A stretch of DNA of 64,000 nucleotides from Henricia sp. BOLD:AAB3569 (lineage: Eukaryota > Echinodermata > Asteroidea > Spinulosida > Echinasteridae), in assembly GCA_037783545.1 (NCBI GenBank), contig JBBELK010000462.1:396370-460369 (forward strand), written 5' to 3'. Each line of letters opens with the position of its first letter. The stretch's first letter is position 1. Shown one piece after another: positions 5,761-59,395 of this stretch. The notes under the pieces were generated by a model that was not told where the DNA came from, ran no database searches, and saw only the letters and a program-made list of their open reading frames with translations. Made by a program: the position numbers and the translations under genes.

Positions 5761-6481
5761 TATTTTTTTTTATTTTGCCTTATGAGCAAAAGTTTTTTAA
5801 ATGTCACACTTACCGGTACAAGTACTTTGAGAAGAGTACACTATGGTTTATTGAATCATTCTTGTCACGTTTAATAGTACATGTACATGTACATACCGGT
5901 ACATGTATGAACAGGTAAAGATGTTATATTCAGAAGGCCATACAAAAACATGCCGTTTATATGAGAGTAAAACTGCATCCTGTTTTCATGGAATAGCCCT
6001 ACCGGTACATGTACATGTATACTACTTTATGTACCGGTATGTATATTATTATGAGCTCATTTCAATGGTTGTTTCATTTCATGGGTGATTAGGCACCATA
6101 CCACATATTGTAATTGTGTGCTCAGACACAATAGGCCTTTTCCCACTAGAACATCAAACCCCAGGGCCACCCCCGGGCGACTCAACCTCACCCCTCATGT
6201 ATTACGATCACATGACACAGTAGACTTAACATAGTATGTACATGTAACACATGTGCTCAGATTTTAACCATAAAGTTAAACAAAAATATGTTTTGTTGTT
6301 CCGTGACTTTTGTCAGCATATCTGTTAGTTAAAAATCGATAAAACAAGCACCACCACTCGGCATAGGTCTTTCAGTTTCGGAAACACACTTTTAATACAC
6401 AACAGGAATTTTGGTTCACCTTGACCGCTCTTTCTCACGGTGTCCAGGAACACTACAATTACCAACAACTGACAAATTTTG
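5761..6481. other. No gene seen; a solo MITE end at 6131-6200
   Basis: AGGCCTTTTCCCACTAGAAC near 6133 matches the terminus of the MITE at 17363-17773, and CCCCGGG-type palindromes follow, as in that family. I could not find the opposite end, so this is probably a truncated copy. The rest is rich in TACATGTA and ACCGGT. Confidence 0.5.
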
Positions 6482-6484
6482 CAG

Positions 6485-7490
6485 TGAGACCGTGTTTACA
6501 CTGGTCCCGAGCTCGGGATCAAGATTGACCCCCTGATAAGAATGTGTTGAGGTTAACCGCAATGGCCTCGAGTGCCGCGTTTATATCTGTTGTTGATCCC
6601 GAGCGCGGGGCCAGAAGTTGCAGTCAAAGGTCAAGCTAATGCAGCAGAATTCCGAGATGTTCCGTCCAGTTTAGCCATTATTTCTGCGCTGGCCCAAATG
6701 TCCAAAAACTTCGCCAGTTCGTCGTTGCTCCACGAGCGCCCGCGAACTTCGTTTGCCATCTTTTCACACGAAGACAACTCGACTCGGCTACTTCGTCTTC
6801 GTCAACTTCTCTTCACGACGAAATATATAATGTCAACTTATGCTATATCGGAAATCGTTGAATGACACTCCGAAATCCTTGATATAACAACTAAAAACTA
6901 AGCTGTATGATAATGACAAAGTGTCGCTAGATAGTTGCAGAAAGTAGAGAAAATGCAGAAAGTAGAGGAAATACAGAAACACTTTTTCTCAACGTGTGAA
7001 GTTTGTATCGGACACGCAAATAAGATTGCTGAATGCAGGATACCAATTACGTTTGTAGTACGTTGTGTTTTCGTAACGGACGCCAGCGAGATTCTCAGTG
7101 TTGCATCACATGTCGATCGCGTCGGGGTATCATGCATTTTGTCATGGCATATATGCCTGCATACAGTGCATGGAACCAGTGGTACCTGTGTGCGTGTATA
7201 CATGTACTACGTGTACACGTGTACATAATAAGAGCGCGGGCTCTCCTGGAATTTTCGCGCGCTTTAGCCCGCAACAGGATGTGGGGCTGTGTGATGAAGA
7301 TTTATTGCCCAGCTAACCGCAAACTGATCCCGAGCTCGGGATCGAACCCTCCGCCATCGCGAGACCAAAATCTCGGGGTCTGATCCGGGGCCAGTTTGGT
7401 TCCGAGAGCGTTTACACCTATTTGTGATCCGGGGCTGATCCCGAGCTCGGTGTTCGATCCCGAGCTCGGGATCAAGTGTAAACACGGTCT
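6485..7490 (-). mobile_element. Harbinger-derived 1-kb element, copy 1
   Basis: The termini are inverted (AGACCGTGTTTACAC core) and flanked by CAG (6482-6484 and 7491-7493). Subterminal sequence is made of the palindrome CCCGAGCTCGGG, present at both ends and once internally near 7328. The second copy (12971-13960) is inverted relative to this one and nearly identical over most of its length. A minus-strand 42-codon frame encodes a Myb/SANT-like start. In Harbinger elements a Myb-like DNA-binding protein is the second gene beside the nuclease. The nuclease is missing here, so the element is non-autonomous. Confidence 0.85.
6631..6759 (-). pseudogene. Truncated Harbinger Myb/SANT-like exon
   Basis: The frame starts MANEVRGRSWSNDELAKFLD and continues with IWASAEIMAKLDGTSRNSAA. 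The pattern R-G-x-x-W-S-x-x-E-x-x-x-L-L-x-I-W with a following L-D-G-T-x-R-N is the first helix region of the Myb/SANT-like protein found in Harbinger transposons. It stops after 42 codons, before the remaining helices. In an intact element this would probably be a first exon continuing through splicing. The second copy (13688-13816) has the same start, stop and length and reads NDK where this copy reads NDE. Confidence 0.7.
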
Positions 7491-16503: not shown

Positions 16504-17095
16504 GAACTTTTACCTGTGATATTTGGCGCCATATATCTTTTGGTAACGATTGGTAACGATAACGCCACAAGATGGAACACATTCCTTATGAATGGGATAA
16601 TATTTGCTGAAAGTGGCTTGGCGGTGAAGCCTGGCAGTCTCAAGATATTGCTTTTTGAATTTTTCTTTGATTAAAATGAAGTATGATAACAGTTCAAAAT
16701 ATAACAAAGTTGGGTTTTATATTTGAGAATTCTTACATAGAATCCCTTTAAATCATAAAATTTGATGTTTTATTCTAAGTTTCTAAGAGAATTAGTTTTT
16801 AAGGTTTTTGTGATTTATCTTCTATTCTGGAAACATGTCGCCAAATCTGGAAACAAAATAAATGTTTCCTGATTTGGAATTGTACCGGACTGTTAAAGGG
16901 ATGACACAGGACTTGCAATGTCCCCAGAACTGGAACTTTAAACTTGGGATGAGAGAAAAATCTTAAGGGCCTCATCTCCGATTCACCTGTCCGAAGATGC
17001 TCTGTATAATCCCTCAGGTTTTCATACTGTGCCTTATAGCAGGGTTGTAGTTGAATCCGTCACAAATCTATCACAAGACCAGAGCCGATAAAATC

Positions 17096-17201
17096 ACAAG
17101 TCCGTGACAAGTCTGTCACAAGTCTGTCACAAGTCTGTCACAAGTCTGTCACAAGTCTGTCACAAGTCTGTCACAAGTCTGTCACAAGTCTGTCACAAGT
17201 C
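17096..17201 (+). repeat. 11-bp tandem repeat CAAGTCTGTCA, about 9 copies
   Basis: The unit repeats nearly perfectly from 17108. The flanking words CAAGTCCGTGA and CAAGTCCAGTA are decayed units. Confidence 0.95.
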
Positions 17202-30592: not shown

Positions 30593-33254
30593 TTAGAATT
30601 TCAAGGAAACGTGGTCATTATGGACATCGACTACACGAGGAAGGAAGATCCAAAATGATTGAAACTTATTATAGTCCATACGAACGAAGTCCGCATGGAT
30701 ACGTTCCGTTAAAGAACGTTTACAGTGGAGGATAACTTCGTCAGTATCACGGAAAACGTTGTCATAAAGTGCCTCGCATCTTGAGGACCATATCTTCCAT
30801 TTCATTAGAGAAATAGTGTACCAGACGAACAGATGTTTCTTGTTGGAAGGTGTGAGACCGTTACCAAAAAATACACAGCTTAATGTCAGTTGAAAGTGGG
30901 GTCCCAGTAGCTTGGACGCGAGGTGGTCCACCCAGCTCCAGAGGGGGGACACAAACTCACACTCCCAGAAAAGATGGGATAGTGTCTCACGTCTGGGACA
31001 TAGTAATCGGGGACACTTTCCATTGCCAATTCCCCAAGAAAACAGGCGCTTGGCAGTTTTAAAGGCTCTCCAGACGAGTCTCCAGTTTACGTCTCGTAAA
31101 GTGTGATCTAGATGCACGTGTGTAAAAAGCTGCCAGTGAGGTACATTAATCGTAGTGATAAGAGGTGGTTGTACTGTAGGAAACTGGTCGACTAGCATCC
31201 TGTACAGCTGTTTTACAGTAACCGAAGTCCAGTTGATGTTAAGATTATGTCTTGTGAGAGAAGAAATCAAACTTGAAAACAAAACGTAGAAACAAGGACA
31301 TGAAAGGGAACGAGGCCTGCTATTTGAATTAAGGTAAGGTGGAAGTAATGCACTTAGTGACAATGAAGTCCAGAATAAGGCAAGAAACTTCCAAGGGGGT
31401 CCTTGTGGATCAAGGATACGGGAGAAGCCTTTGATAAAAAGAGCTTGTGACTTAAAACGGATGTTGGTAACTCCCAGCCCACCTATATCCACATCCTGCA
31501 TGATGACTTTTCTGCTGACAAGTTCCGACTTGTTGGACCAAAAGAAACGAAAGATGAAGCGGTTGACAGTTTTCTCGATTCTTGTTGGGAGGTGGTAGAC
31601 TGGGGCTACATAAAGCAGATGAGACAGAAACACTGAGTTAATCACCAAAACTTTGCCGATGAGGGAGAGCGAACGGGATTTCCAATGGTCTATCGTACTA
31701 ACAAGTTTTGGTAGGCGATCTTCCCAATTTGTTTTGGCCATGTCGCCGCGTCCTATCCAGAAGCCATTGATTTTTATGGGGTCTTCTGTCCACGATATGG
31801 GGTACAAATTGGAAAGGCTGTTTCCCCAATCACCAACAACCATGCCTTTGGACTTTTGGATATTGAGGCGGGAACCCGAAGCTCCCTGGAACAGCGAGAT
31901 AATGTTGAATAGACGCTTAAGAGACGGAACGTTGCGGACAATGCACGTGGTGTCATCTGCGTATTGTATTATTTTACACTGTGTATTCCCACTGCCAGGG
32001 AGAAAAATACCGGATATCTTATCGTCCTTCAAAACTACGGAAGCAAAAGGCTCAATAAACAACACATATAGAAGGGGAGATACGGGGCAGCCCTGCTTAA
32101 CACCCTTTTCAAGTGGAAATTTGTCGGAAAGGAACCCGTTGACAAGAACTTGGGCTGAAATATCAGTGTACAAGATATCGATCCATTTGATGAAGTTAGA
32201 ACCGAAACCATATTTAGACATAATTTTGAATAGAAAGGACCAGCTCACACGATCAAAAGCTTTTTGCTGATCTAATGAAATAAACAGGCATTTAGGAAGA
32301 CGCTCTTCCGCATACTGAAAAAGGTCCCGCAAAAGTCTACCATTGTCATGAATCGATCGGCCTTTAACACCACAGGTCTGAAACGGATTAATGATATAAG
32401 GCAAGGCTCGACTCATGCGACCACAGAGCGTCTTAGCAAGCAATTTATAGTCCGAATTCAATAAGGAAATTGGTCGCTTATTCTGAGGAAGGAGAGGGTC
32501 GCCTGATTTTTCCAAAAGAGTGATGATACTCTGTCGCTGTTATATGGTTAAACTGCTGTTGTCGAATGAATAGTTAAAAACTTTGAGCAGATCAGGGCCT
32601 AACAAGTTCCAGAAAGTGACATAAAATTCTCTCGGTAAGCCGTCGCTTCCGGGGGATTTATTGTTTTGCATTTCCGAAAGGGCTTCGGAGAGTTCGTCAA
32701 GGCAAATGGGACCATCTATGTCTTCTTGTAAATCTTGAGGCAAGGAAAGAACTATATTATCCAAGAAGAAAGCTTAATTGTTGTTCTTCAGAAACACTGT
32801 CAAAAGAAAATAGATCTGCGAAAAAATCTTTATATACATCAGTAACATCCCTGGGTAAATCAACAATAATACCATCAGGTCTTTTGGCCGCTGTGATAGT
32901 GCATTTCTTCTTGTGTTTGGATTCAGATGTGAAAAATGATTTTGAGGGATTTTCACCTTCCTGAAGGAGGGTAATTCGAGACCGGATCCTGGCACCATGT
33001 GCTTCGTAATCTTCTAACTTAGACAGTTGTGTTTTGATGTCTGAAACAGATTGCAGTAATGTCGGGTCTTTGGCTCCTTTATTTAGGCGAGAAGTTAACA
33101 AGTTTAATTTATGTACCAATGTATCTCTTTTCTGTCTCCTGACACGGGCAAGACGGCAGGAATGACGGATAATTATATCTTTCGAACGGCCCTTGATATC
33201 CTCCCACCAGTCCTGAAGATTTTCATAACCATCCTGGAGGGTACGCCAATCGAG
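30593..33254 (-). pseudogene. LINE ORF2, linker, reverse transcriptase and C-terminal zinc-binding part
   Basis: The first segment (33254-32757) is the linker with LYQEG-like text (LLQEGENPSKSFF). KSPGSDGLPREFY then opens the RT. The long 640-codon run (32515-30593) carries RPISLLNSDYKLLAK, FISLDQQKAFDRVSW, EKGVKQGCPVSPLLY and QYADDTTCIV, the palm motifs with both aspartate sites intact. It is followed by the thumb and a C-terminal CPRLLC...HLFWEC motif typical of L1-group ORF2. A frameshift near 32760 and a stop codon at 32540-32542 interrupt it. Upstream, the BEL/Pao insertion separates it from the endonuclease part. Confidence 0.85.
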
Positions 33255-34268: not shown

Positions 34269-37200
34269 TCAAGGCTCCTCGTCGGGGACGCCCTGGCTCT
34301 CCTGATCTTCTACCAGTAGGACCAACTTCTGGATGGGACGTTCGAGGAATCTCTCAGGGCGCACTCTTTTACCCTTGTCATCCAGGTGTGGGTCACCGAT
34401 GGAGAGTTTAACCTTTCGCACATGGTTGTCCTGACTTGGATAAACTTCAACGATCCTTGCAAGGAGCCACTGGTTGCGTGGGAGGTTCTCATCCTTTACA
34501 AGGACAATATCTCCTACTCGGAGATTAGCTCGAGGACGGACCCATTTCTGACGCTGTTGGAGCTTCTGGAGGAATTCCTTCTTCCATCTCGTCCAGAATT
34601 CATTTGCCAAGTACTGAACTCGACGCCAGCGTTTGCGACAGTACACATCAGTACGCTGAAAGTTTCCAGGCGGTGGCAAGATGATCTTGGACTTCATGGT
34701 CAACAAGTTGCTTGGACTAAGTGGGTCCAGGGACATCGGGTCATTCAGGTTGTCTACTGTCAATGGCCTGCTATTGATAATAGCAGCTGCTTCACACATC
34801 AGCGTTCTTAGTGACTCATCGTCGAGCTGTGAGCCAGCTTGCTGTAGCAGAGGTTCCAATACTCTACGCACGGAGCGTATTTGGCGTTCCCAAATGCCTC
34901 CCGCGTGGCTTGCTGAAGGGGGATTTGTCTTGAAGTCGATGTAATCGCATCCTTCTTTCTGAAGAAATTGCTTTATGCTGCTATCATCCATTTCCTTGAG
35001 GCATTCCCTGAGTTCCGTTTCGGTACCCGTGAAATTCGTGCCTCTGTCAGATCTCAAGGTACGGATGGGTCCACGAATGGAGACAAATCGTCGAAGTGCA
35101 TTAATGAATGAGTCTGTGCTGATATCCACTGTGGTCTCAATGTGAATAGCACGTGTCGTCAAGCAGGTGAACAGGACACCGTATCTTTTCAGCTGTTTCC
35201 TTCCATCCCGGATATACCAGGGTCCAAAAAGATCCACGCCGCAGTAAGTGAACGGTGGCTCCGGATGTAATCTATCCTCTGGTAAGTCTGCCATCTTCTG
35301 GATCTCTGGTCGAGCAAATAGTTTCCGACACCTCACGCACTTCGATAGGTAGTGTGACACGGCGGAGCTACATCCAGTAACCCAAAATCCACTTGATCGG
35401 ATTTGATTGATCGTCATGCCTCGACCCTGATGTTGAACTTGCTCATGGCAATGCCGGATTACTAACTGAGTGATGTGATGCTTCCTGGGCAATATGGCAG
35501 GGTGCTTCATGTTGGGAGAAAGACTTGACCTTCGTATGCGCCCTCCAACTCGCATAATGTTGTCCGCATCAAGGAATGGATCTAACTTGTAGAGGCAGCT
35601 TGTGGTCTTCATGGTGCTCTTGCGCTCTCGAACAATGGGTATGCTTAGGTTGTCACTGTCAACCTTTAAGGACTGAAGAATCTTAATCTCTTCTCCAAAG
35701 GCTTCCCTTTGCACCAGTCTTAGGATTTCCAATTCCGCTTGACGAAGATCTTCCACCAAAACTGATTGGTAGAAAGGGATACCATCTTTCCGCAGGGACT
35801 GGATGGAACCATGCTTACGGGATTTCTTGACGGAGCGCTCCATCAGGAGTGACTTGAACTTTAGACAGGTAGCAACAGCTCTTTTAGCCTGATGCCAATC
35901 CGAAAAACGCTCAAGACGTTCAAGCTCAAACTGTGCCTTTACAGTTTGCGTGGCGAGGCTCTTGACTTTCTTAACCTCCAGGTCATCTTCAGAGACAGTT
36001 GGGCGAGTAGCCTCGATTACGACTGGGACCTCACTCTCCCAGAGAAAATCTGGACCATGCAGCCATCTTGGATTATCTGCAAGCTGCTTTGTAGAGAGTC
36101 CTCTAGATCCATCATCGGCGGGATTTTTCTCAGTTTCGACATGCCTCCACTGGGATGGTTCAGTCAGGTTCCTTATCTGCTGTACTCGGTTGGCCACGAA
36201 TACATGAAATCTGCGGGAGTCGTTTGCGATATAACCAAGAACGACTCGACTGTCTGTCCAGAAAATTTCATCGAAATCCTTGTAGCCTAGTTCCTTGCGC
36301 AAGAGAGCACTGACTCTAACGGAGACAACCGCAGCATTGAGTTCAAGACGTGGGACGGTAACTGTCTTAAGTGGGGCGACTCGGCACTTGCCCATAATCA
36401 AGGCGCAATGGACTTGTCCGGAGACATTCTTCAGTCGGAGGTACGAACATTGGGCATAACCAGTGTTGCTTGCGTCTGAGAAGTGGTGAACTTCAACAGT
36501 CTTCACTTCTCCAAAATTGTTTGGTCGGAAGCATCGCTGAATCTTGAGGTTCTCAAGAAGGCGAAGATTGTTTCTCCATCGCTCCCAACGAGCCTTCATC
36601 ATGTCAGAAAGAGGATCATCCCATCCGACGTCTTCCTTGCATAGACTCTGGAGAATCTGCTTTCCAATAAGCAGGCATGGGGCTGTGGATAAGATACCAC
36701 GCCTTGTGAAGGGCTTGTCCTTCAAGGTGATACGGAAGTGAAACGTATCCGACTCAATACACCATTCAACCCCAAGAGCTCTTTCTACTGGGAGTATGTC
36801 ATTTCGCAGATCAAGATCTCTGACACCCTGTGCGCGATCCTCTGAGGGAACGGCATCGATCACTGCTCTTGAATTAGATACGAACTTGTGGAGTCGCAAA
36901 CCACCTTGATTCAGGAGTTCTTTCGTTTTCAAGATCAGGTCTATGGCTTCTTCAGTAGTGGGACATGATGTCAAGCCATCATCCACATAGAAGTCCTGTC
37001 GGACGAAATTGGCAGCAGCCGATCCAATCTGTGCTTCGTAGTCATTCGCGATCTGCTTCATACCAAAGTTGGCACAACCTGGAGATGACGTTGCACCAAA
37101 CAGATGAACATTCATGCGGAGAACAATGGGATCCGAGTTGTAATCACCACTTTCCCACCAGAGAAATCTCAGGAAGTCTTGATGCTCTCCACAAACTCGG

Positions 37201-38223
37201 AACTGGAAGAACATTTGTTCCACGTCGCACATGAAGGCAATTAATTCTCGGCGAAATCGACAAAGCACACCAACCAATGCATTCGTAAGATCCGGTCCTT
37301 GCAAGAGATAGTCATTCAGAGATTCCGCATTGTACCTGGCGCTACAATCAAAGACAACCCGAATTTTGTCAGGCTTCTTCGCATGGTAGACTCCATGATG
37401 AGGTATGTACCAAACATGGTTGTCATTTTTGTCAAGCTCTTGCTTCGGGACACTCTCGGCATAACCATTGTCGATGATCTTGGTCATGAATGCAGTGTAG
37501 TCTGCATAGTATTTTTCGTTTTTCTTGAAGCGAGTCTTAAGTTGTTGAAGACGGCGCATGGCCTGTATCTTGTTGTTTGCAAGTTTTGGAAGGTTTGCCT
37601 TTCTGAAGGGGAGAGGCATCACATAATGCCCGTCAGGCTGTTGCTTCACACCTTCCTGTATCTGTCGCATAAAACTCATGTCATCTTGTGACAGGGGGAC
37701 GTCGTCTGTTGTCCGTTCAGAAAAATCTAATTCCATCATCTCAGCGATCCTGCAAGGGTTAATGACTTCTCTGACTTTCGTTCTGAAGGAGAACAGTACT
37801 CGATTCTGCTTCGGTGTCATACCCTGACCCTTGCCGTCCACAACGGGTGGGGTCACTTCGCAGGCCAGTATTTTGTGGCTTACACCGATTGGGTCGCATA
37901 ATTCCCCATCCCAGGTCAGTACGCTGACCGTAAGGTTCATCATCGACTGGAGCTATAACTTCCCGAGGGGCCAAGGCTCTCGGACAGTTGTATCCGATCA
38001 GCAAGCCGAATTCGCAATCAGCAACTGGCATCAGCTGGTCCGCAATTCTTGTCAAGTGCGGCCATCTCCTGGCCATTTCTGCAGTGGGGATGTGGGATCG
38101 ATTTGATGGCATGATTTCTTTTGAATACGCTGCAGGCAATGGAATTTTCAACTGACTGTCATAGCCACGAACCACAAGCCCACTAATCTTGTTACTCGTC
38201 ACCATTGTGTCCTTCGCGAACAT
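34269..38223 (-). other. BEL/Pao pol region (approximate limits)
   Basis: A long reading region with reverse transcriptase, RNase H (HHFSDASNTGYAQC), a zinc-binding H2C2 segment before the integrase core, and a basic C-terminal tail. These are the usual parts of a BEL/Pao pol. Treated as a fossil and described only as a region. Confidence 0.85.
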
Positions 38224-38245
38224 CGTGGACAGTAGAAGATGGACC

Positions 38246-40115
38246 TCAACCCCGTGTTATCTGTAGGGCATCGCAAGTGTCTTGGAGTATGAATGTTGTG
38301 TCAGATTGTGTGTCCAGCAACGCGTAAACCATTCTCTCTACTTCAGGCTTATCTCGGTGAGAGATCCAGACTGGCACAACCATCGAGCTTTTATTTCCAT
38401 CACCAGCTCCATCAAACAAGCTGACTTGGGTGTTGGTGCTCACTGACTTGATCTGTGGCGGAGGTGGTGCACTAACTTCTGTCGCATTTGTAGTTGGCTT
38501 GGCGTTGACCCTTACATCACCATGCAAAGATGTCGGATGATTCCTGGAGCAAGTCTTGCACGTAAGCCGCCTCCTACAATTTTTGGATATATGTCCTGGA
38601 GTGAGACAGCCAAAACATAGGCCTTTCTTCTTCACAAAGTCCTTTCGGTCATCCATCTCTTTGGTCACGAACATCTTGCAAAAGTCTAGGTGGTGATCTT
38701 GGCTGCACAGGGGGCATTCTCTTGACCTTTGTGTTCGGTTTTCAGAGAAAGACTGCTTCATGGGTGATTCGTTAGATGTAGTGGCGAAGATACTTGTTCC
38801 AGGTCTTGGCTCCTTTCTGGTGACCTTTGAAGTGTATGCATCATAGGTGACCTTGTCAGTCTTGATTGACTGCAGAGAAGTTACGGGATCGCATGCCAAG
38901 TCCGCCTCCCTGGAGAGAAATTTTACAAACTCTGCAAAGGGGGGAAAAGTCTTCTTGTCTTCCTTCCACCCATGTGCCTTGCGTCCCCATCTTGGAACCA
39001 GCCATTCTGGAAGTTTTGCCAGGATTCGCCTGTTCTCTCTCTCGTCATTGAGCACGTTGAGACTCCCAATGGACTCCATGGCCGTTTCGCACTGTCGCAG
39101 AAAGTCGGAGAGATGTCGCAATCCTTTACCATCTCTTGAGGATATTTTCGGCCACGCATCCAATTTGTCTCGAAAGGCACTCGCAACAACAAATGGATCA
39201 CCATATCGTTTGTCCAGTAGGGCCTTGGCTTGAGTGAAGGCGTCGTCACTATTTAAAAAGAAGTAACCTTCAATGGCCTCCTTGGCTGGGCCGCTCAAGT
39301 ATCGCTTCAAATAGTGAAGTCGTTCTGAGGCAGGTATACCCCTTCGTTCAATGAGAGTTTCGAAGCTACTCTTCCATGTCGGATACTTTAGTGGATCACC
39401 AGAAAAGATGCCGGGCTCTGGAGGGGGTAAACGACTGAGATTAAGCTGGTCAGCAAATAACTTTGCAAGGCCAAGTAAATGTTCTTGAGCTTGGGCCTCG
39501 GGTTTCTCAACTTTGGACGGTGTCTGCACTTCGGGTTTTATAGGGTCTCCTCGCAGTGGCGTAGATGAGGCCAGCATTCCCGCAGGTACTGGAATATTTA
39601 CCATTTCGTAAATTTTCTCTTCTGACATTGGCCTACAGAGTGACTGCAAATATTCTTCAACAAACAAATTCTTGTTCTCTGGCTGCACGTTAGCATCGAT
39701 GAGAGAGCACGCATTTTCTTCTCTCTGCACATTGTCAATAGCTTCCAATTTTGACTCGGCAGTCTGTAGATCACGCAATTTCTAAAGCTTCAGCAACTCA
39801 AATTGTTTTTTTCTGAAGTTCTGCTTTCTTCATCGCCTCTAGGTCTGCAAATTTCAATTCAGTTTTCAAGGCCGCAGCTTCTGCAGCGAGCGCTGCCCTT
39901 GCAGACAAGTGAGATGAAGCTCTGCTTTTGTGCGATGCCTTTGATGACCTCGATTTGACCTCTGCCTTGTCATTGTTGCTCATTCGCTCCCATATCTTGG
40001 CGATTATATCATCCACATTAGCTGGGGATAAATATGTAGCCTGTGAAGCTTGAGCTCCTTCACTGGGCGGGGAAACTGGGAACAAATGGGGTGGACTTAA
40101 TTCTCGCTGATCCAT
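38246..40115 (-). other. BEL/Pao gag and protease region (approximate limits)
   Basis: Contains a DUF1759-type gag segment (IFSGDPLKYPTWKSSFETL), CCHC-like knuckles (CFGCLTPGHISKNC) and a retropepsin-like segment (ALLDTQSDTTFI). This order is typical of BEL/Pao elements. Confidence 0.8.
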
Positions 40116-48514: not shown

Positions 48515-48624
48515 TGGGGAAAAATGTATGGGGCGCCCTTCGTCAACTAATTATTTAGGCGAATTATAGCATGTTTTTTCCATGGTTTATCTTAATTCTG
48601 TGTAAATAATGCATTTGTGTCAAA

Positions 48625-49345
48625 GGCCGTTTATGGTTTACAAACCTTTAAAACTTCGTTTTGTACCGACACGATTCTTTACAAAACAGGAAATATACTT
48701 GTAGCTGTGCAAATTCATTATTTACAAATAATGAAAATGACCTCGGCGTTCCATACTTTATTAATGAAACCGACGAGTGTACATTTCAATGGTTTACAAA
48801 CAAGAGAATTGTATCGTTCAAGACAATTCCATGGTTTATAAATAATGAATACTGCACGTACATTGCTGCACGTTTTTCTGGTTTACAAATAATACAAAAC
48901 TATTACTGGTGCGCAATTACATGGTTTATAAACCAAGAAACTTGCACCGGGGTCTGATTTTCTATGGTTTATAAATAATGAAAATTGGTTAGTGGACGTA
49001 CAATTTCATGGTTTATAAACAATCAAAACTGCGCCGTTCTAATCAATTTTGTGGATTCTGTGGTTTGTAAACAATTAAAAATAGTCAATAGGCGTGCATT
49101 TCGATGGTTTGTAAATAATTGAAAGTGATCGTTGGCTCACAATTTCATGGTTTATAAATAATGAAAATGAACTAGTTAGTGTGTCGCAAAATTTCATGGT
49201 TTACAAACAGAGAAAATTAAAGCTTTATACACTTGTCTGTCGTTTGTAAAGGTTGACTATCGATAAAAAGAGAAGTATTATGCACTCGGTACGTCTCAAA
49301 ATACGATCATTGACGAAAAATTGAAGGGTTTGTAAACCATGAAAA
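48625..49345 (+). repeat. Array of TGGTTTATAAATAATGAAAA-like motifs
   Basis: Copies occur at about 48633, 48787, 48829, 48878, 48921, 48964, 49007, 49061, 49103, 49148, 49197 and, reversed, 49328. Spacers of 20-45 bp are unrelated to each other. The mirror array lies at about 51470-52140. The core resembles forkhead-type sites (GTTTACAAAC), or they may be transposase sites. Confidence 0.7.
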
Positions 49346-50650
49346 ACACGCTTCATAAACGTTTATTATAATCCAGTTACGTTGCGAGAGCAATCATATG
49401 GGTGCGTTCAATTAGCTATCATCGAGTCATAGGGGTGCTCGTCAAAGTGTGAACAGTCCGGCAGACCATGGCAACAAAGGTATTTATGTGTACAGCTCAT
49501 CGAACGCCACGGCACAGCCTTCAGCGGGCGCGCGGGAAATTCCAGGTTCATTACCTGACTAAACCTAGCCGCGTATTGGGCCCAAAATCCAGCCGCGGTT
49601 TCAGCCGCGGTCTCTGCCGCGGTCTTAAAATCTCAAACGGATGTAGTAAAAGGTGATAAAATCTTATTTTTTATTACACGAGTTCTGAGACTCTGGCAAT
49701 GAAATTGTTAAAATTCTCATAGAAATGTATTTCTTTTCACGGTGTTACCTAACTCAGTCATCTACCGGGCTGATTAAATTTTAAATGGTAATTTTAATAA
49801 ATACATTTTAAATTAATTTTAATTAATGAGGAGTCTCCATTTTTCACCCCAAAAGTGCCGAAAACTTAATACTGCCGACAGAATGGTCCCTTTAAAAGAA
49901 AATGTACACCACATAGTTTGAAAAATTTGCATTTTTATTACATAATCCATTTAATCCGTCCATGGGGCAGATCAAATTTTGGAGGAAGCCAAATCGGTCT
50001 ACTAATTAGTGCTTAATTAAAGGGATAACAAAGAGTCTGGTTTCCACTAAAAAAGTGTCGAAAACTTAATACTGCTGACAAAATGGTCCCTTAAAAAGAA
50101 AATTTACACCACATAGTTTGAAAAATTTGCATTTTTATTACATAATCCGTTTGAAACTATGCGGTGACATTTTCTTTTAAAGGGACCAATTTGTCAGCAG
50201 TATTCAGTTTTCGGCACTTTTGGGGTGGAAAATGGAGACTCCTTATTATCCCTTTAATTAAGCAGTAATTAGTGGACAGATTTGGCTTCCTCCAAAATTT
50301 AATCTGCCCCCATGGACGGATCAAATGTATTATGTAATAAAAATGCAAATTGTTCAAACTATGTGGTGTACATTTTCTTTTAAAGGGACCATTCTGTCGG
50401 CAGTATTAAGTTTTCGGCACTTTTGGGGTGGAAAATGGAGACTCCTCATTAATTAAAATTAATTAAAAATGTATTTATTAAAATTACCATTTAACATTTA
50501 ATCAGCCCGGTAGATGACTGAGTTAGGTAACACCGTGAAAAGAAATACATTTCTATGAGAATTTTAACAATTTCATTGCCAGAGTTTCAGAACTCGTGTA
50601 ATAAAAAATAAGATTTTATCACCTTTTACTACATCCGTTTGAGATTTTAA

Positions 50651-51186
50651 AGGCCCAGTGGATCATTTGCAATGACCCCAAAAAGTAATCGACGAGTTTA
50701 CAGGGGAAAAGTTCTGAAAGTAAAGATTGAATTAATAGCAACTACCCAATGAAAGGTTTTCGCTCAAAATGATATAATTTTACCAGAAAATAATCCGTAA
50801 AGATGAAATTATTTAGATCGTTTGCAAACGATTTACTTATTTTTGGTTCGCATCTACGCGGTCCAAAATGCATGGGCGCTGTGTACTCCGCGTGCGTACG
50901 TGTTCCAACGCGATGCATTTTTATGGAGAGCGCGCAGACGCGCGCAGTATATGATGTGCGCCACAGAGTGCATGACGCAAGGCACATAGTACACGATCAA
51001 CTGAGAACGAATATTTGAAACACCCCGCCAAGACCAGGAAAACGCATGTGGATTTTCATGGTTTTTTTAAACGTGGTACATTTGACAAAGCTGAAATTTC
51101 TTCGGATGAGTTTGTTGATGTCTTTCTTTTGATTTATAATGGTTTTATCCGCAGAATCGCTCAAAAACAGATCATCTACAGGGCCT
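50651..51186. mobile_element. 536-bp TTAA-flanked MITE in the palindrome arm
   Basis: The left end is AGGCCCAGTGGATCATTTG and the right end, reverse-complemented, AGGCCCTGTAGATGATCTG. TTAA lies at 50647-50650 and 51187-51190. The mirror position in the other arm (49621-49632) has a single TTAA and no insert. The insertion is therefore younger than the palindrome and its duplication is exactly TTAA. Coding potential is absent. Confidence 0.9.
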
Positions 51187-52262
51187 TTAAGACCGCGGCA
51201 GAGACCGCGGCTGAAACCGCGGCTGGATTTTGGGCCCAATACGCGGCTAGGTTTAGTCAGGTAATGAACCTAGAATTTCCCGCGCGCGCGCTGAAGGCTG
51301 TGCCGTGGCGTTCGATGAGCTGTACACATAAATACCTTTGTTGCCATGGTCTGCCGGACTGTTCACACTTTGACGAGCACCCCTATGACTCGATGATAGC
51401 TAATTGAACGCACCCATTGCTCTCGCAACGTAACTGGATTATAATAAACGTTTATGAAGCGTGTTTTTCATGGTTTACAAACCCTTCAATTTTTCGTCAA
51501 TAATCGTATTTTGAGACGTACCGAGTGCATAATACTTCTCTTTTTATCGATAGTCAACCTTTACAAACGACAGACAAGTGTATAAAGCTTTAATTTTCTC
51601 TGTTTGTAAACCATGAAATTTTGCGACACACTAATTAGAATTGTGAGCCAACGATCACTTTCAATTATTTACAAACCATCGAAATGCACGCCTATTGACT
51701 ATTTTTAATTGTTTACAAACCACAGAATCCACAAAATTGATTAGAACGGCGCAGTTTTGATTGTTTATAAACCATGGAATTGTACGTCCACTAACCAATT
51801 TTCATTATTTATAAACCATAGAAAATCAGACCCCGGTGCAAGTTTCTTGGTTTATAAACCATGTAATTGCGCACCAGTAATAGTTTTGTATTATTTGTAA
51901 ACCAGAAAAACGTGCAGCAATGTGCAGTATTCATTATTTATAAACCATGGAATTGTCTTGAACGATACAATTCTCTTGTTTGTAAACCATTGAAATGTAC
52001 ACTCGTCGGTTTCATTAATAAAGTATGGAACGCCGAGGTCATTTTCATTATTTGTAAATAATGAATTTGCACAGCTACAAGTATATTTCCTGTTTTGTAA
52101 AGAATCGTGTTGGTACAAAACGAAGTTTTAAAGGTTTGTAAACCATAAACGGCCTTTGACACAAATGCATTATTTACACAGAATAAAGATAAACCATGGA
52201 AAAAACATGCTATAATTCGCCTAAATAATTTGTTGACGAACGGCGCCCCATAAAAATGGGCT

Positions 52263-55175: not shown

Positions 55176-55242
55176 CTTGCAAGCATCGGTTAGTTCAGAT
55201 ATTACGGAAGCGTATTTAGGACCTGGTGAAAAATATTTTTAT

Positions 55243-55820
55243 TTCGTACGTACGAATTACTATTTCGTACGTACGAATTACTATTTCGTACGTACGAATT
55301 ACTATTCCGTACGTACGAATTACTATTCGGTACGTACGAATTACTATTCCGTACGTACGAATTACTATTCCGTACGTACGAATTACTATTCCGTACGTAC
55401 GAATTACTATTCCGTACGTACGAATTACTATTTCGTACGTACGAATTACTATTCCGTACGTACGAATTACTATTCGGTACGTACGAATTACTATTTCGTA
55501 CGTACGAATTACTATTTCGTACGTACGAATTACTATTTCGTACTTACGAATTACTATTTCGTACATACGAATTACTATTTCGTACGTACGAATTACTATT
55601 CCGTACGTACGAATTACTATTCGGTACGTACGAATTACTATTCCGTACGTACGAATTATTATTCCGTACGTACGAATTACTATTCCGTACGTACGAATTA
55701 CTATTCCGTACGTACGAATTACTATTTCGTACGTACGAATTACTATTTCGTACGTACGAATTATTATTCCGTACGTACGAATTATTATTCCGTACGTACG
55801 AATTATTATTCCGTACGTAC
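55243..55820. repeat. 21-bp palindromic satellite, about 27.5 units
   Basis: The unit is TACGTACGAATTACTATTCCG with CCG, TCG or CGG variants. Each unit centre CGTACGTACG is a perfect palindrome, extending to ATTCGTACGTACGAAT where the flanks allow. Twenty-one is a multiple of three and the unit has stops in only one of six frames, so the long frames across it are artefacts. The array ends exactly where the minus-strand LINE RT sequence begins. Confidence 0.95.
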
Positions 55821-55825
55821 GGAAG

Positions 55826-56455
55826 GTCATTGTCCTCTAGGTATCCAAGGAGCTGTTGATTAACAAAGCATTCAAAGATCTTACTTATTATGGGAAGCAA
55901 ACTAATAGGACGATAATTGGTAGATTCAGAACGCTCCCCAGCACCCTTAAAGACAGGGACAACAGACGCCACTTTCCAGGATGAAGGAAACACAGAGACT
56001 GCCAAGCACATATTGAATAGCTTGGCAAGAATAGGTGAAAGTTCTGGGGAACACATTTTCAAAACAATTGCAGGGACTCCATCAGGGCCGGTAGCCTTGG
56101 AGGCATCAAAGGAATTAATAATCCGGGCAATCTTCTTTGGGGTGATAAGAGGATCAGAATATACTACAGTGGCTGTTCGAGATGGAAAGGCAGGAAGGGA
56201 ATGCCCCTCATCACTGAGTATGGAGTTAGATGCAAATATATCAGCCAAAAGGTTTGCCTTATCTTGAGGAGAAGTAAGAACTTCAGGTCCATGAAAGAGA
56301 GGAGGAATGGAGGACTTGTTGCGGTTCAGTACACTATTGGCAATCCGCCAAAAGTCCCTAGAACCAAGCCGCTGTGTTGAAATAGAACTAGCAACAGAGT
56401 CTGCATACTGCTTCTTGGCATCCTCTAAAACTCTCTTACATCGATTTCGAGCTTC
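55826..56455 (-). pseudogene. LINE B reverse transcriptase, N-terminal part
   Basis: It carries NRCKRVLEDAKKQYADS, SRDFWRIANSVLNR, DASKATGPDGVPAIVLK, FPSSWKVASVVPVFKG and NYRPISLLPIISKIFE. These are RT fingers and early palm of a CR1/Jockey-type LINE. The catalytic YADD part is missing because the satellite array replaces it. Confidence 0.85.
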
Positions 56456-57183
56456 ATCGATTTCAACCCACCCGGAACCACCCATACATCCCACATCACG
56501 GGATGAGAGTCCCTCACCCCCGCACTCCGAACCAGGAATGGATACAGTATCTCCAGGAGGTCAGACAACTTCTAAATCCACAAAGCAGGGGTCAAATGTA
56601 AGCCTAAAAGATGGTATCATACATAGTCATAGCGACGGGGACTTTTCTTATGCTCACCTTAACGTAAGAAGTATCATCAACAAATTTGACCAATTTAAGA
56701 TACTGTTCTCAAGAAAACCATTTGATGTTATGTGTCTAAATGAAACTTTCTGTGACGGCACGATTTCTGACGGTGAGATCGCACTGCCTGGGTATTCTAT
56801 TGTTAGAAAAGACAGAAATCGCCACGGTGGCGGGGTAGCCATGTATATTAGAGACACGCTAAATTTTACTCGCCGATGTGATCTTGAACATGATGATGTC
56901 GAATGTATTTGGGTCGAAATTAGGTGTAAGCAAAGACAGCCAGTACTTATGAGTTCTGTTTATAGACCACCATCGAGTACTGTCGAGTTTTTAGATAACC
57001 TAACCGATATTACTGAAAAGGCGTCCTGTTAATTTAAAGAAATGATTGTACTCGGTGACTTTAACAGTGATGCAGCGGATGTTAATGCACCCAATCCTAT
57101 ACTCTCTTGCATGAATCTCTTCCAAATGGAGCAGTTAATACAAGAACCAACTCGAGTCACGCAGTTCACCCAAACAAGTTAGC
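56456..57183 (+). pseudogene. LINE A endonuclease region
   Basis: AHLNVRSIINKFDQFK, DVMCLNETFC, RHGGGVAMYIRD, SSVYRPPSS and IVLGDFNSD are the apurinic-type endonuclease motifs in order. In-frame stops occur at 57030-57032 and about 57181. Confidence 0.85.
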
Positions 57184-57192
57184 GCATGCGGA

Positions 57193-59395
57193 GTGTTGCA
57201 AACCCTCATAAGTGATCATTTTCTTATTTACGGCATACATAATTGGAAAACGCCTCGCAAAGGGTGTCGTTTAATTAATTTTCGACGCCTGAAGGATATT
57301 GATACCGAAACGTTTCACAATGACCTCCGCAATGCTCCATGGGAGTATGTTATAAACTGTCAACATGTTGACGAAGCGTGGTTTATCTGGCACTCGATTT
57401 TTATGGCTGTTATTAACCACCATGCTCCAATCAAGTCCAAGCGTGCTCGAAGCGGCACCATACCATGGCTTGATGGAGAATTGCTCCAACTAATGCGCCA
57501 ACGAGATCGTGCACATAGTGTAGCTAAAAAGTCGCGCTCATCGAAAAATTGGGATATGTACAAAAAGTTAAGAAATTATGTTACTAACAAAGTTAGACAA
57601 AAGAAAAGCGAATATTTCACTTCGGCAATTGAGGAAAATAAGGATAACTCATCACTCTTGTGGAAGAAACTTAAAGAAGTCCTTCCCAATAAACAAAAAT
57701 GTGTCCCGAGTTCAATCATCAACGGAGAATATGTTGATGACCCTACCGACATCGCAAATAATTTCAATGAATATTTTTCAACAATTGGTGTACGTATGTC
57801 CGCTGAGAATCACACAAGTTCAAATGAGGCCGATGATTCTCACGGCCATTCTCTTGTTTCTTCACCAGATTACGAACATTGTTCTCTCCTAGTATCCCAG
57901 AAGAGTTTGTCAAAAAGAAAATTGCATCTTTGTCGGTTGGGAAAGCAACAGGCCCAGATGGTATTAGCGTTAATATGATTAAAATGGCTGCACCTTTTAT
58001 TACTAAGTCTTTAACGCATATATTTAACCTCTCCATAATAAATGAACAGTATCCCAAGGCATGGAAACATGCTTCAGTTACACCTATTCATAAAGGAGGC
58101 GATAAGTGCAACGCATGTAATTACCGACCTATATCAATCTTGCCGATTATCTCTAAAATCCTAGAAAGATGGATACACTCGAACATGTACTCGTACCTTG
58201 ATGAAAATAATTTCATTCCTGTCTGTCAATCTGGATTTCGGCCTTTGCACTCGACAGAAAGTACACTAAACGATTTAACAAACGAGTGTCTTCAAGCTAT
58301 GGATCACGGGAGAATGACCGGAACAGTTTTCCTAGATTTCAGTAAGGCATTTGACTGCGTTGACCATAACATTCTTTTAGAAAAATTAGAAAAGCTGAAC
58401 ATGTCGATTTCGGTAATAAACTGGTTTAAGTCCTATCTCAGTGATAGCAGTCAAACCGTTAATATTAGTAAACATATATCAAAATCCTTGCCTATAAGTG
58501 TCGGTGTACCACAAGGATCAATTCTGGGCCCATTATTGTTTCTTGTATATACATATGACCTGCCTCTTTATGTATCCGATAAGCTATATATGTATGCCGA
58601 TGACTCCACACTAACTTGCAGTTCCGAAAGCATTGTCGAAATTGAAACTAGCCTTAACAAGTCATTAGACATGATTCATCTGTGGTCCGTTAAAAATAAA
58701 ATCTAAAAATCTGTATGCTAATTGGCTCAAAGAAAAAGATAAGCGCGCATGAGCTCAGAGTACACATTAATAATGATCAAGTGCATAACGTTAAATCGTT
58801 TAAATGCTTGGGTTTTATTATTGACGAAACCTTAAGTTGGAACCAACATGTCGAATATGTAAAGAAGACAGTTTTCTCGAAATTAGCTATGTTAAAAAGA
58901 ATTCGCGACTGTGTAACTCAACAGCACATGAACACCCTTATGTTAAGCTTAGTCATGCCTAGTCTAGATTATTGTTGCACAGTATGGGGTGACCGTTACG
59001 CATCTCATAACAATGTCTTGAACAAATGCCTCAAACGTGCAGCCAGAATAATACTGAAATGCGATTTCCTAACGCCATCATCTGACATGTTTAAAAAGCT
59101 CGACTGGCTTGCCTATCCAGAGAGAGTTAAATACAAGAAAGCTATATTCGTCTTTAAAAGCATCAATTCACTGGCCCCGCAGTATATGGCAAGTCTATTT
59201 ACACCTTACGTACAAACTCGAGAAACTCGTCAATCTGCCGAAAAGACACTGAAAATTCCCTTTGCACGAAAGGGGTCTTACGCCTCGAGTTTTGCTGTAA
59301 CTGGCGCCGCAATTTGGAACAGCCTTAGTGCTCACCTTAGAACTATGTCTTCTTTGAGCTCATTCAAATCGGCACTTCGCCAAACATACACATAA
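57193..59395 (+). pseudogene. LINE A reverse transcriptase region
   Basis: It contains SVGKATGPDGISVNMIK, NYRPISILPIISKILE, TVFLDFSKAFDCVDHN, GVPQGSILGPLLF and MYADDSTLTC, so the YADD catalytic box is intact. The C-terminus has SLDYCCTVWGD, RAARIILKCDF and AAIWNSLSAHLRTMSSL, typical of CR1/Jockey LINEs. Frameshifts near 57890 and near 58705 separate three frames. Confidence 0.9.

Follow-up and report, generated by a model that had tools for sequence, protein, structure and literature searches.

A near-palindromic locus in Henricia sp. as a probable IS3EU-type foldback element with conserved, regularly spaced TTTRYAAA sites

What is a near-complete palindrome of more than three kilobases, and why does each of its arms carry a regular array of one short motif? 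The question is raised by a locus in the window, a stretch of 64,000 nucleotides (contig JBBELK010000462.1, positions 396,370 to 460,369) from the 740.7-Mb genome of the sea star Henricia sp. A first-pass annotation, made from the letters alone, placed a 3.2-kb palindrome at 48515–52262 and suggested a foldback family with a motif-binding transposase, a hairpin-RNA locus producing siRNAs, or an array bound by a forkhead-type factor. The locus is a transposable element, because copies of its family have matched ends and target-site duplications (TSDs). It probably belongs to a young, non-autonomous family of IS3EU-type foldback elements, whose arrayed sites would be bound by a transposase supplied from elsewhere and whose arms would be kept alike by inter-arm repair, with the interval C122:788445-841344 as a candidate for the helper lineage.

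The element occupies 48527–52252 (3,726 bp) and ends in TATGGGGCGCC and GGCGCCCCATA, which match the ends of other copies. The same six bases, AAAATG, flank it on both sides (48521–48526 and 52253–52258), and the interval of the first-pass annotation therefore included some flank. Inverted-repeat searches identify a left arm at 48527–49629 (+) and its inverted copy, the right arm, at 51186–52252 (−), each about 1.1 kb long, together with an inner palindromic core module at 49625–50650 that has arms of 343 nt and further inverted repeats centrally; the palindrome is thus real. Its one-sided gap arises because a 536-bp element (50651–51186), foreign to the foldback family, has inserted at TTAA on the right side. 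This nested element has short inverted ends, AGGCCC..GGGCCT, lies between TTAA duplications at 50647–50650 and 51187–51190, and has its empty site at the mirror position in the left arm. The TTAA duplications presumably mark a short element of piggyBac or Kolobok type. When the insert is removed, the foldback element measures 3,186 bp, to which the size of 3.2 kb applies, and 95.0% of its alignment columns equal its own reverse complement, compared with 53% for one shuffled sequence used as a control. Among frames of at least 90 aa, the longest stop-to-stop frame fully within the element has 143 aa (50976–51404), about half of it inside the nested element, in keeping with the claim, judged here by frame length, that the locus has no coding region.

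Other repeats share the window. On the minus strand at 34272–39781, two long frames with Peptidase_A17, DUF5641, DUF1759 and a weak match to an integrase core mark a Pao/BEL-type retrotransposon. The intervals 30596–32539 (−) and 56295–58703 (+) hold LINE-type frames for reverse transcriptase (RVT_1) and a frame that resembles an endonuclease. A 21-bp minisatellite of 27.7 copies (55240–55821, 96%) leaves several frames open and runs into a reverse-transcriptase-like frame at 55547–56560 (−), and an 11-bp tandem repeat of 9.8 copies lies at 17094–17201.

The first-pass annotation had proposed a search for other loci sharing the TATGGGGCGCC end, and such loci are numerous. A 34-bp terminus has 379 genome matches with at most three mismatches (185 forward and 194 reverse), and the reversed pattern, used as a control, has none. 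Exact 22-bp ends number 322, and pairing neighboring ends within 25 kb among 313 of them yields at least 125 copies, which span 1.6–20.9 kb with a median of 3,924 bp and leave 63 of the 313 matches listed unpaired. The interiors of the compared copies are mosaic, and the middle domain varies in size and content, part of the spread being due to nested insertions. The arms of L013, L020, L021 and L027 show zero differences over the compared columns, and therefore some copies must be very young. A more diverged 6.4-kb copy, L010, has arms 2.5% apart and an interior that the other compared copies hardly match. The core module was considered as an independent element and rejected: of the 47 long matches obtained when 40 of 214 candidates were scored, 41 fall within paired copies, and the remaining six lie, as compared by eye, within about 2 kb of family ends or between them.

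Target-site duplications accompany these ends. With a pattern that excludes T at position −9, 287 ends were matched together with nine flanking bases, and the first 100 of them form 35 neighboring pairs. An exact 6-bp TSD is present in 28 of these 35 pairs, a 7-bp one in a single pair and neither in six, compared with 0.81 exact 6-bp TSDs expected when ends are re-paired at random. The matches include the C122 pair, whose ends are 52.9 kb apart, and the misses include two inner pairs, one on C154 and one on C162, outside which further ends sit; the outer C154 pair (copy L031, AAAGCC on both sides) would match. Several ends have unusual flanks. Two unpaired opposite ends 769 kb apart, C10:101199(+) and C10:870332(−), share nine identical outward flanking bases, which could reflect an inverted duplication or else an inversion between two copies. 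Three ends on C92 and the end at C161:328416 likewise have nine identical flanking bases, and because of this identity they were probably copied along with their surroundings. Three additional ends on C161 share one 10-base flank, and at ends on C108 and C162 the flank is itself arm sequence.

A motif scan locates 15 TTTRYAAA cores in a single orientation in the left arm (48637–49336, +), with 43 bp as the commonest spacing, and 14 cores in the right arm that point inward from its end (51474–52142, −). The array is thus present in both arms as first described, with slightly more copies than the approximately 13 per arm then counted. Mononucleotide shuffling of the first 1000 bp, repeated 1000 times, gives a mean of 0.26 cores and never more than 3. 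Core spacings in the window element are 41–52 bp, most often 43 bp, with further values of 65, 72 and 86 bp. Of 523 steps from core to core over 34 arms of 17 elements, 227 measure 43 bp and 321 fall within 41–45 bp. The wider site around the core reads roughly TTTCATGGTTTATAAATAATGAAAA, a near-palindrome.

The cores vary little among these 34 arms. At a cut-off of 3%, none of 120 core columns varies, compared with 75 of 700 other columns (Fisher p 7e-6, a value that is indicative only since alignment columns share descent). The same holds for A/T positions alone (0 of 110 versus 43 of 445) and for columns with any difference (1 of 120 versus 111 of 700), and the number of varying columns rises, up to 23, when the windows are shifted off the core sites. 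Such constancy suggests a protein-binding site under selection. The conserved, regularly spaced sites probably let a helper enzyme find the elements, and we infer by analogy that the bound protein is a transposase, because the long arms of Galileo, an element of the P superfamily in Drosophila, contain several sites that its transposase binds through a THAP domain (PMC3688188). Of the first proposal, a foldback family with a transposase that recognizes the motif, the dispersed copies, defined ends, 6-bp TSDs and near-invariant cores are observed, and the transposase as binder is the inferred part.

Instead of serving the transposase, the array may be maintained for a host factor, for example of forkhead type, or for chromatin or silencing; we regard this as somewhat unlikely, yet it deserves the most weight among the alternatives. 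Conservation by itself does not identify the binder, and the TTTRYAAA core resembles a forkhead site. However, the sites belong to the arms of mobile copies and keep to one orientation and a fixed 43-bp step, and Galileo shows that foldback-like arms can hold arrays of sites for a transposase. The ends of Galileo differ from those of the present family, and its transposase is of P type with a THAP domain, whereas binding in the present family is deduced from conservation. General Pfam scans of stretches of L010, L049 and L050 detected no THAP family.

The family belongs to the foldback structural class, having long, internally repetitive terminal inverted repeats and a variable middle. Termini and TSD length, taken alone and set against the published description, point to a non-autonomous foldback element of the IS3EU type. 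IS3EU elements are described as ending in TAYGG..CCRTA, with inverted repeats of more than 30 bp and TSDs of 6 bp (PMC12730594), and the termini of IS3EU/GingerRoot as TA..TA (PMC10045372). Consistently, the ends read TATGGGG..CCCCATA in the window and in the complete copies examined, the TSDs are 6 bp in the 28 pairs mentioned above, and the inverted repeats of the window element reach about 1.1 kb. Compared by description, the family differs from IS3EU as described in its arms of more than 1 kb, its phased array and its near-complete palindrome. Among the top-ranked matches in the open-licence literature, no account of foldback IS3EU elements was found; in PMC8268682, IS3EU and foldback occur together, the latter only in the title of a reference.

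Convergence could have given IS3EU-like ends to an element with 6-bp TSDs from a different, perhaps undescribed, superfamily. The assignment is based solely on the termini and the length of the TSD, 6-bp TSDs have also been reported for hAT families, and the copies examined hold no transposase tied to the family. Nevertheless, termini, TSD length and inverted-repeat length jointly agree with the published IS3EU signature, and the one integrase-like frame detected between ends of the family belongs to the DDE integrases, so that we consider convergence unlikely.

Most foldback elements described so far have been placed in the Mutator (MULE) superfamily, but membership of the present family in it is highly improbable. 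The architecture is shared with Tetris, a Mutator-type foldback element that also has long arms with repeated domains and a variable non-coding middle, and for which no autonomous copy was found. However, the TSDs of Tetris are 8–10 bp (PMC4079207), in contrast to the 6 bp of 28 of 35 pairs among the first 100 of 287 ends, and the ends of the present family fit TAYGG..CCRTA. Foldback arms whose outer domain consists of short repeats are also a feature of the TU elements of sea urchins, which differ from the present family in their 15-bp repeat unit and 8-bp TSD.

That the locus is mainly a source of hairpin-derived siRNAs is a reading to which we give very little credence. A read-through transcript would form a long hairpin, but transposition accounts for dispersed copies with TSDs, and constraint limited to short periodic cores is unexpected if the whole length of the hairpin matters. 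Because the matched ends and duplications identify a transposon, siRNA or forkhead roles could be side effects at most and not the identity of the locus. A false palindrome produced by assembly or reads can practically be dismissed, since foldback artefacts, which are possible in long reads (PMC12870357), are at odds with the many copies in which unlike flanks carry one shared 6-bp TSD and with a nested element present in one arm only. The center of an individual copy may still be incorrect.

Under the preferred reading, that of an IS3EU-type foldback family mobilized in trans, a transposase made elsewhere would occupy the array in each of the two arms. A dimer is suggested by the near-palindrome of the site, and 43 bp corresponds to about four helical turns. 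The bound transposase would then join the two ends and move the element by cut and paste. The arms would stay nearly identical when a break in one arm is repaired by copying the other.

Arms within one copy differ by a median of 0.57%, compared with 2.5% between copies (17 elements). None of 20000 re-pairings of these 34 arms gave a mean arm difference as low, in a test that excluded L029 and L030, which have interrupted arms, and included C122; in an earlier set with L029 and L030 but without C122, 15 of 10000 re-pairings did. The mate is the nearest or joint nearest arm for only 20 of the 34 arms, and therefore descent within subfamilies accounts for part of the likeness. In copy L031, the left host flank (125–481) recurs inverted at 6439–6795, immediately behind a complete right end; it is followed by the last 131 bp of a right arm and then by AAAGCC, which is also present before the left end. 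The junction has about two shared bases, as judged by eye. This inverted flank is probably a relic of arm-to-arm break repair. The simplest reading would be that the right arm broke, that the left arm was copied outward into host DNA and that end joining closed the gap.

A source of transposase was sought within the family. Fifteen of the 19 paired copies longer than 5 kb were examined, whole or in part, and no transposase was recognized in them; the copies of 5,094, 5,111, 10,911 and 20,863 bp and the rest of the 16.7-kb copy lay outside this reading. By eye, the longer frames of L026–L028 resemble LTR-element polyproteins, that of L040 a LINE protein and the frames of L029, L031, L039 and L046 LINE fragments, and all were rejected as transposases. 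A six-frame Pfam scan of L010 (1980–5862) gave no domain. Genome-wide searches with the IS481 and IS3 models (67 of 2044 and 72 of 1316 candidates scored) failed to discriminate, and their matches are mostly long open reading frames that are LTR-like by length.

The interval C122:788445-841344 is the best candidate for a helper of the foldback family. It spans 52.9 kb between paired family ends that carry the array and share the 6-bp TSD ATCCAG. Its arms show 98.6% identity across 1,513 bp, which extends some 275 bp past the part common to other copies, and therefore both ends belong to one unit. Near the inner end of each arm, within the arm, an inward frame begins with MADRADLASTISRAVTEAVL, and the two frames then diverge between the sides. 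An open, integrase-like frame of 370 aa, 10.5 kb from the right end and on the strand reading inward from that end, matches rva_4 (PF24764) with an E-value of 3.9e-69. Residues picked by eye give a D-56-D-36-E spacing, and Pfam detects no zinc domain. The transposase expected of IS3EU is of DDD/E type without the HHCC zinc motif, and rva_4 proteins would be no more than putative members of that group. The frame also matches IS481 (2.4e-17) and IS3 (1e-5), below the cut-offs of these models, which match many longer open reading frames of the genome as well, several of them, among the candidates scored, above the C122 frame. A comparison with solved structures gave none close (best E 0.54), and Pfam found no further domain at an E-value of 1 in three minus-strand frames each upstream of the frame and inside the right end.

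The rva_4 model has 53 matches in this genome and none in 14 control genomes, and C122 holds the sole one of the 53 that lies between paired family ends. Merging the matches leaves 45 rva_4 loci, for which the chance expectation is 0.003 for the C122 interval and 0.04 across 126 paired spans. In stretches of 3.2–3.3 kb, two other rva_4 loci, L051 and L052, show no TAYGG..CCRTA pair by the criteria used. C122 is nevertheless a candidate and not a shown helper, because about 43 of its 52.9 kb were left unread. A bolder version, to which we hold only tentatively, is that C122 may be a giant autonomous IS3EU element with 43-bp-phased ends of 1.5 kb, on which the rva_4 integrase would assemble as an ordered row of dimers over about 16 sites per arm. 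The foldback copies would then consist of its ends plus the palindromic core, kept palindromic by arm copying after breaks.

If the IS3EU assignment is right, IS3EU would join the superfamilies that yield foldback elements. The many young copies allow the binding-site array of a transposon to be read from constraint alone, and L031 hints at how palindromes persist, namely by inter-arm break repair that is able to capture host flank. If C122 is the helper, the little-known integrase family rva_4 would be tied to particular DNA ends in a testable system. If C122 is indeed a giant element, it would represent a new route to foldback elements as well as a very large cut-and-paste unit.
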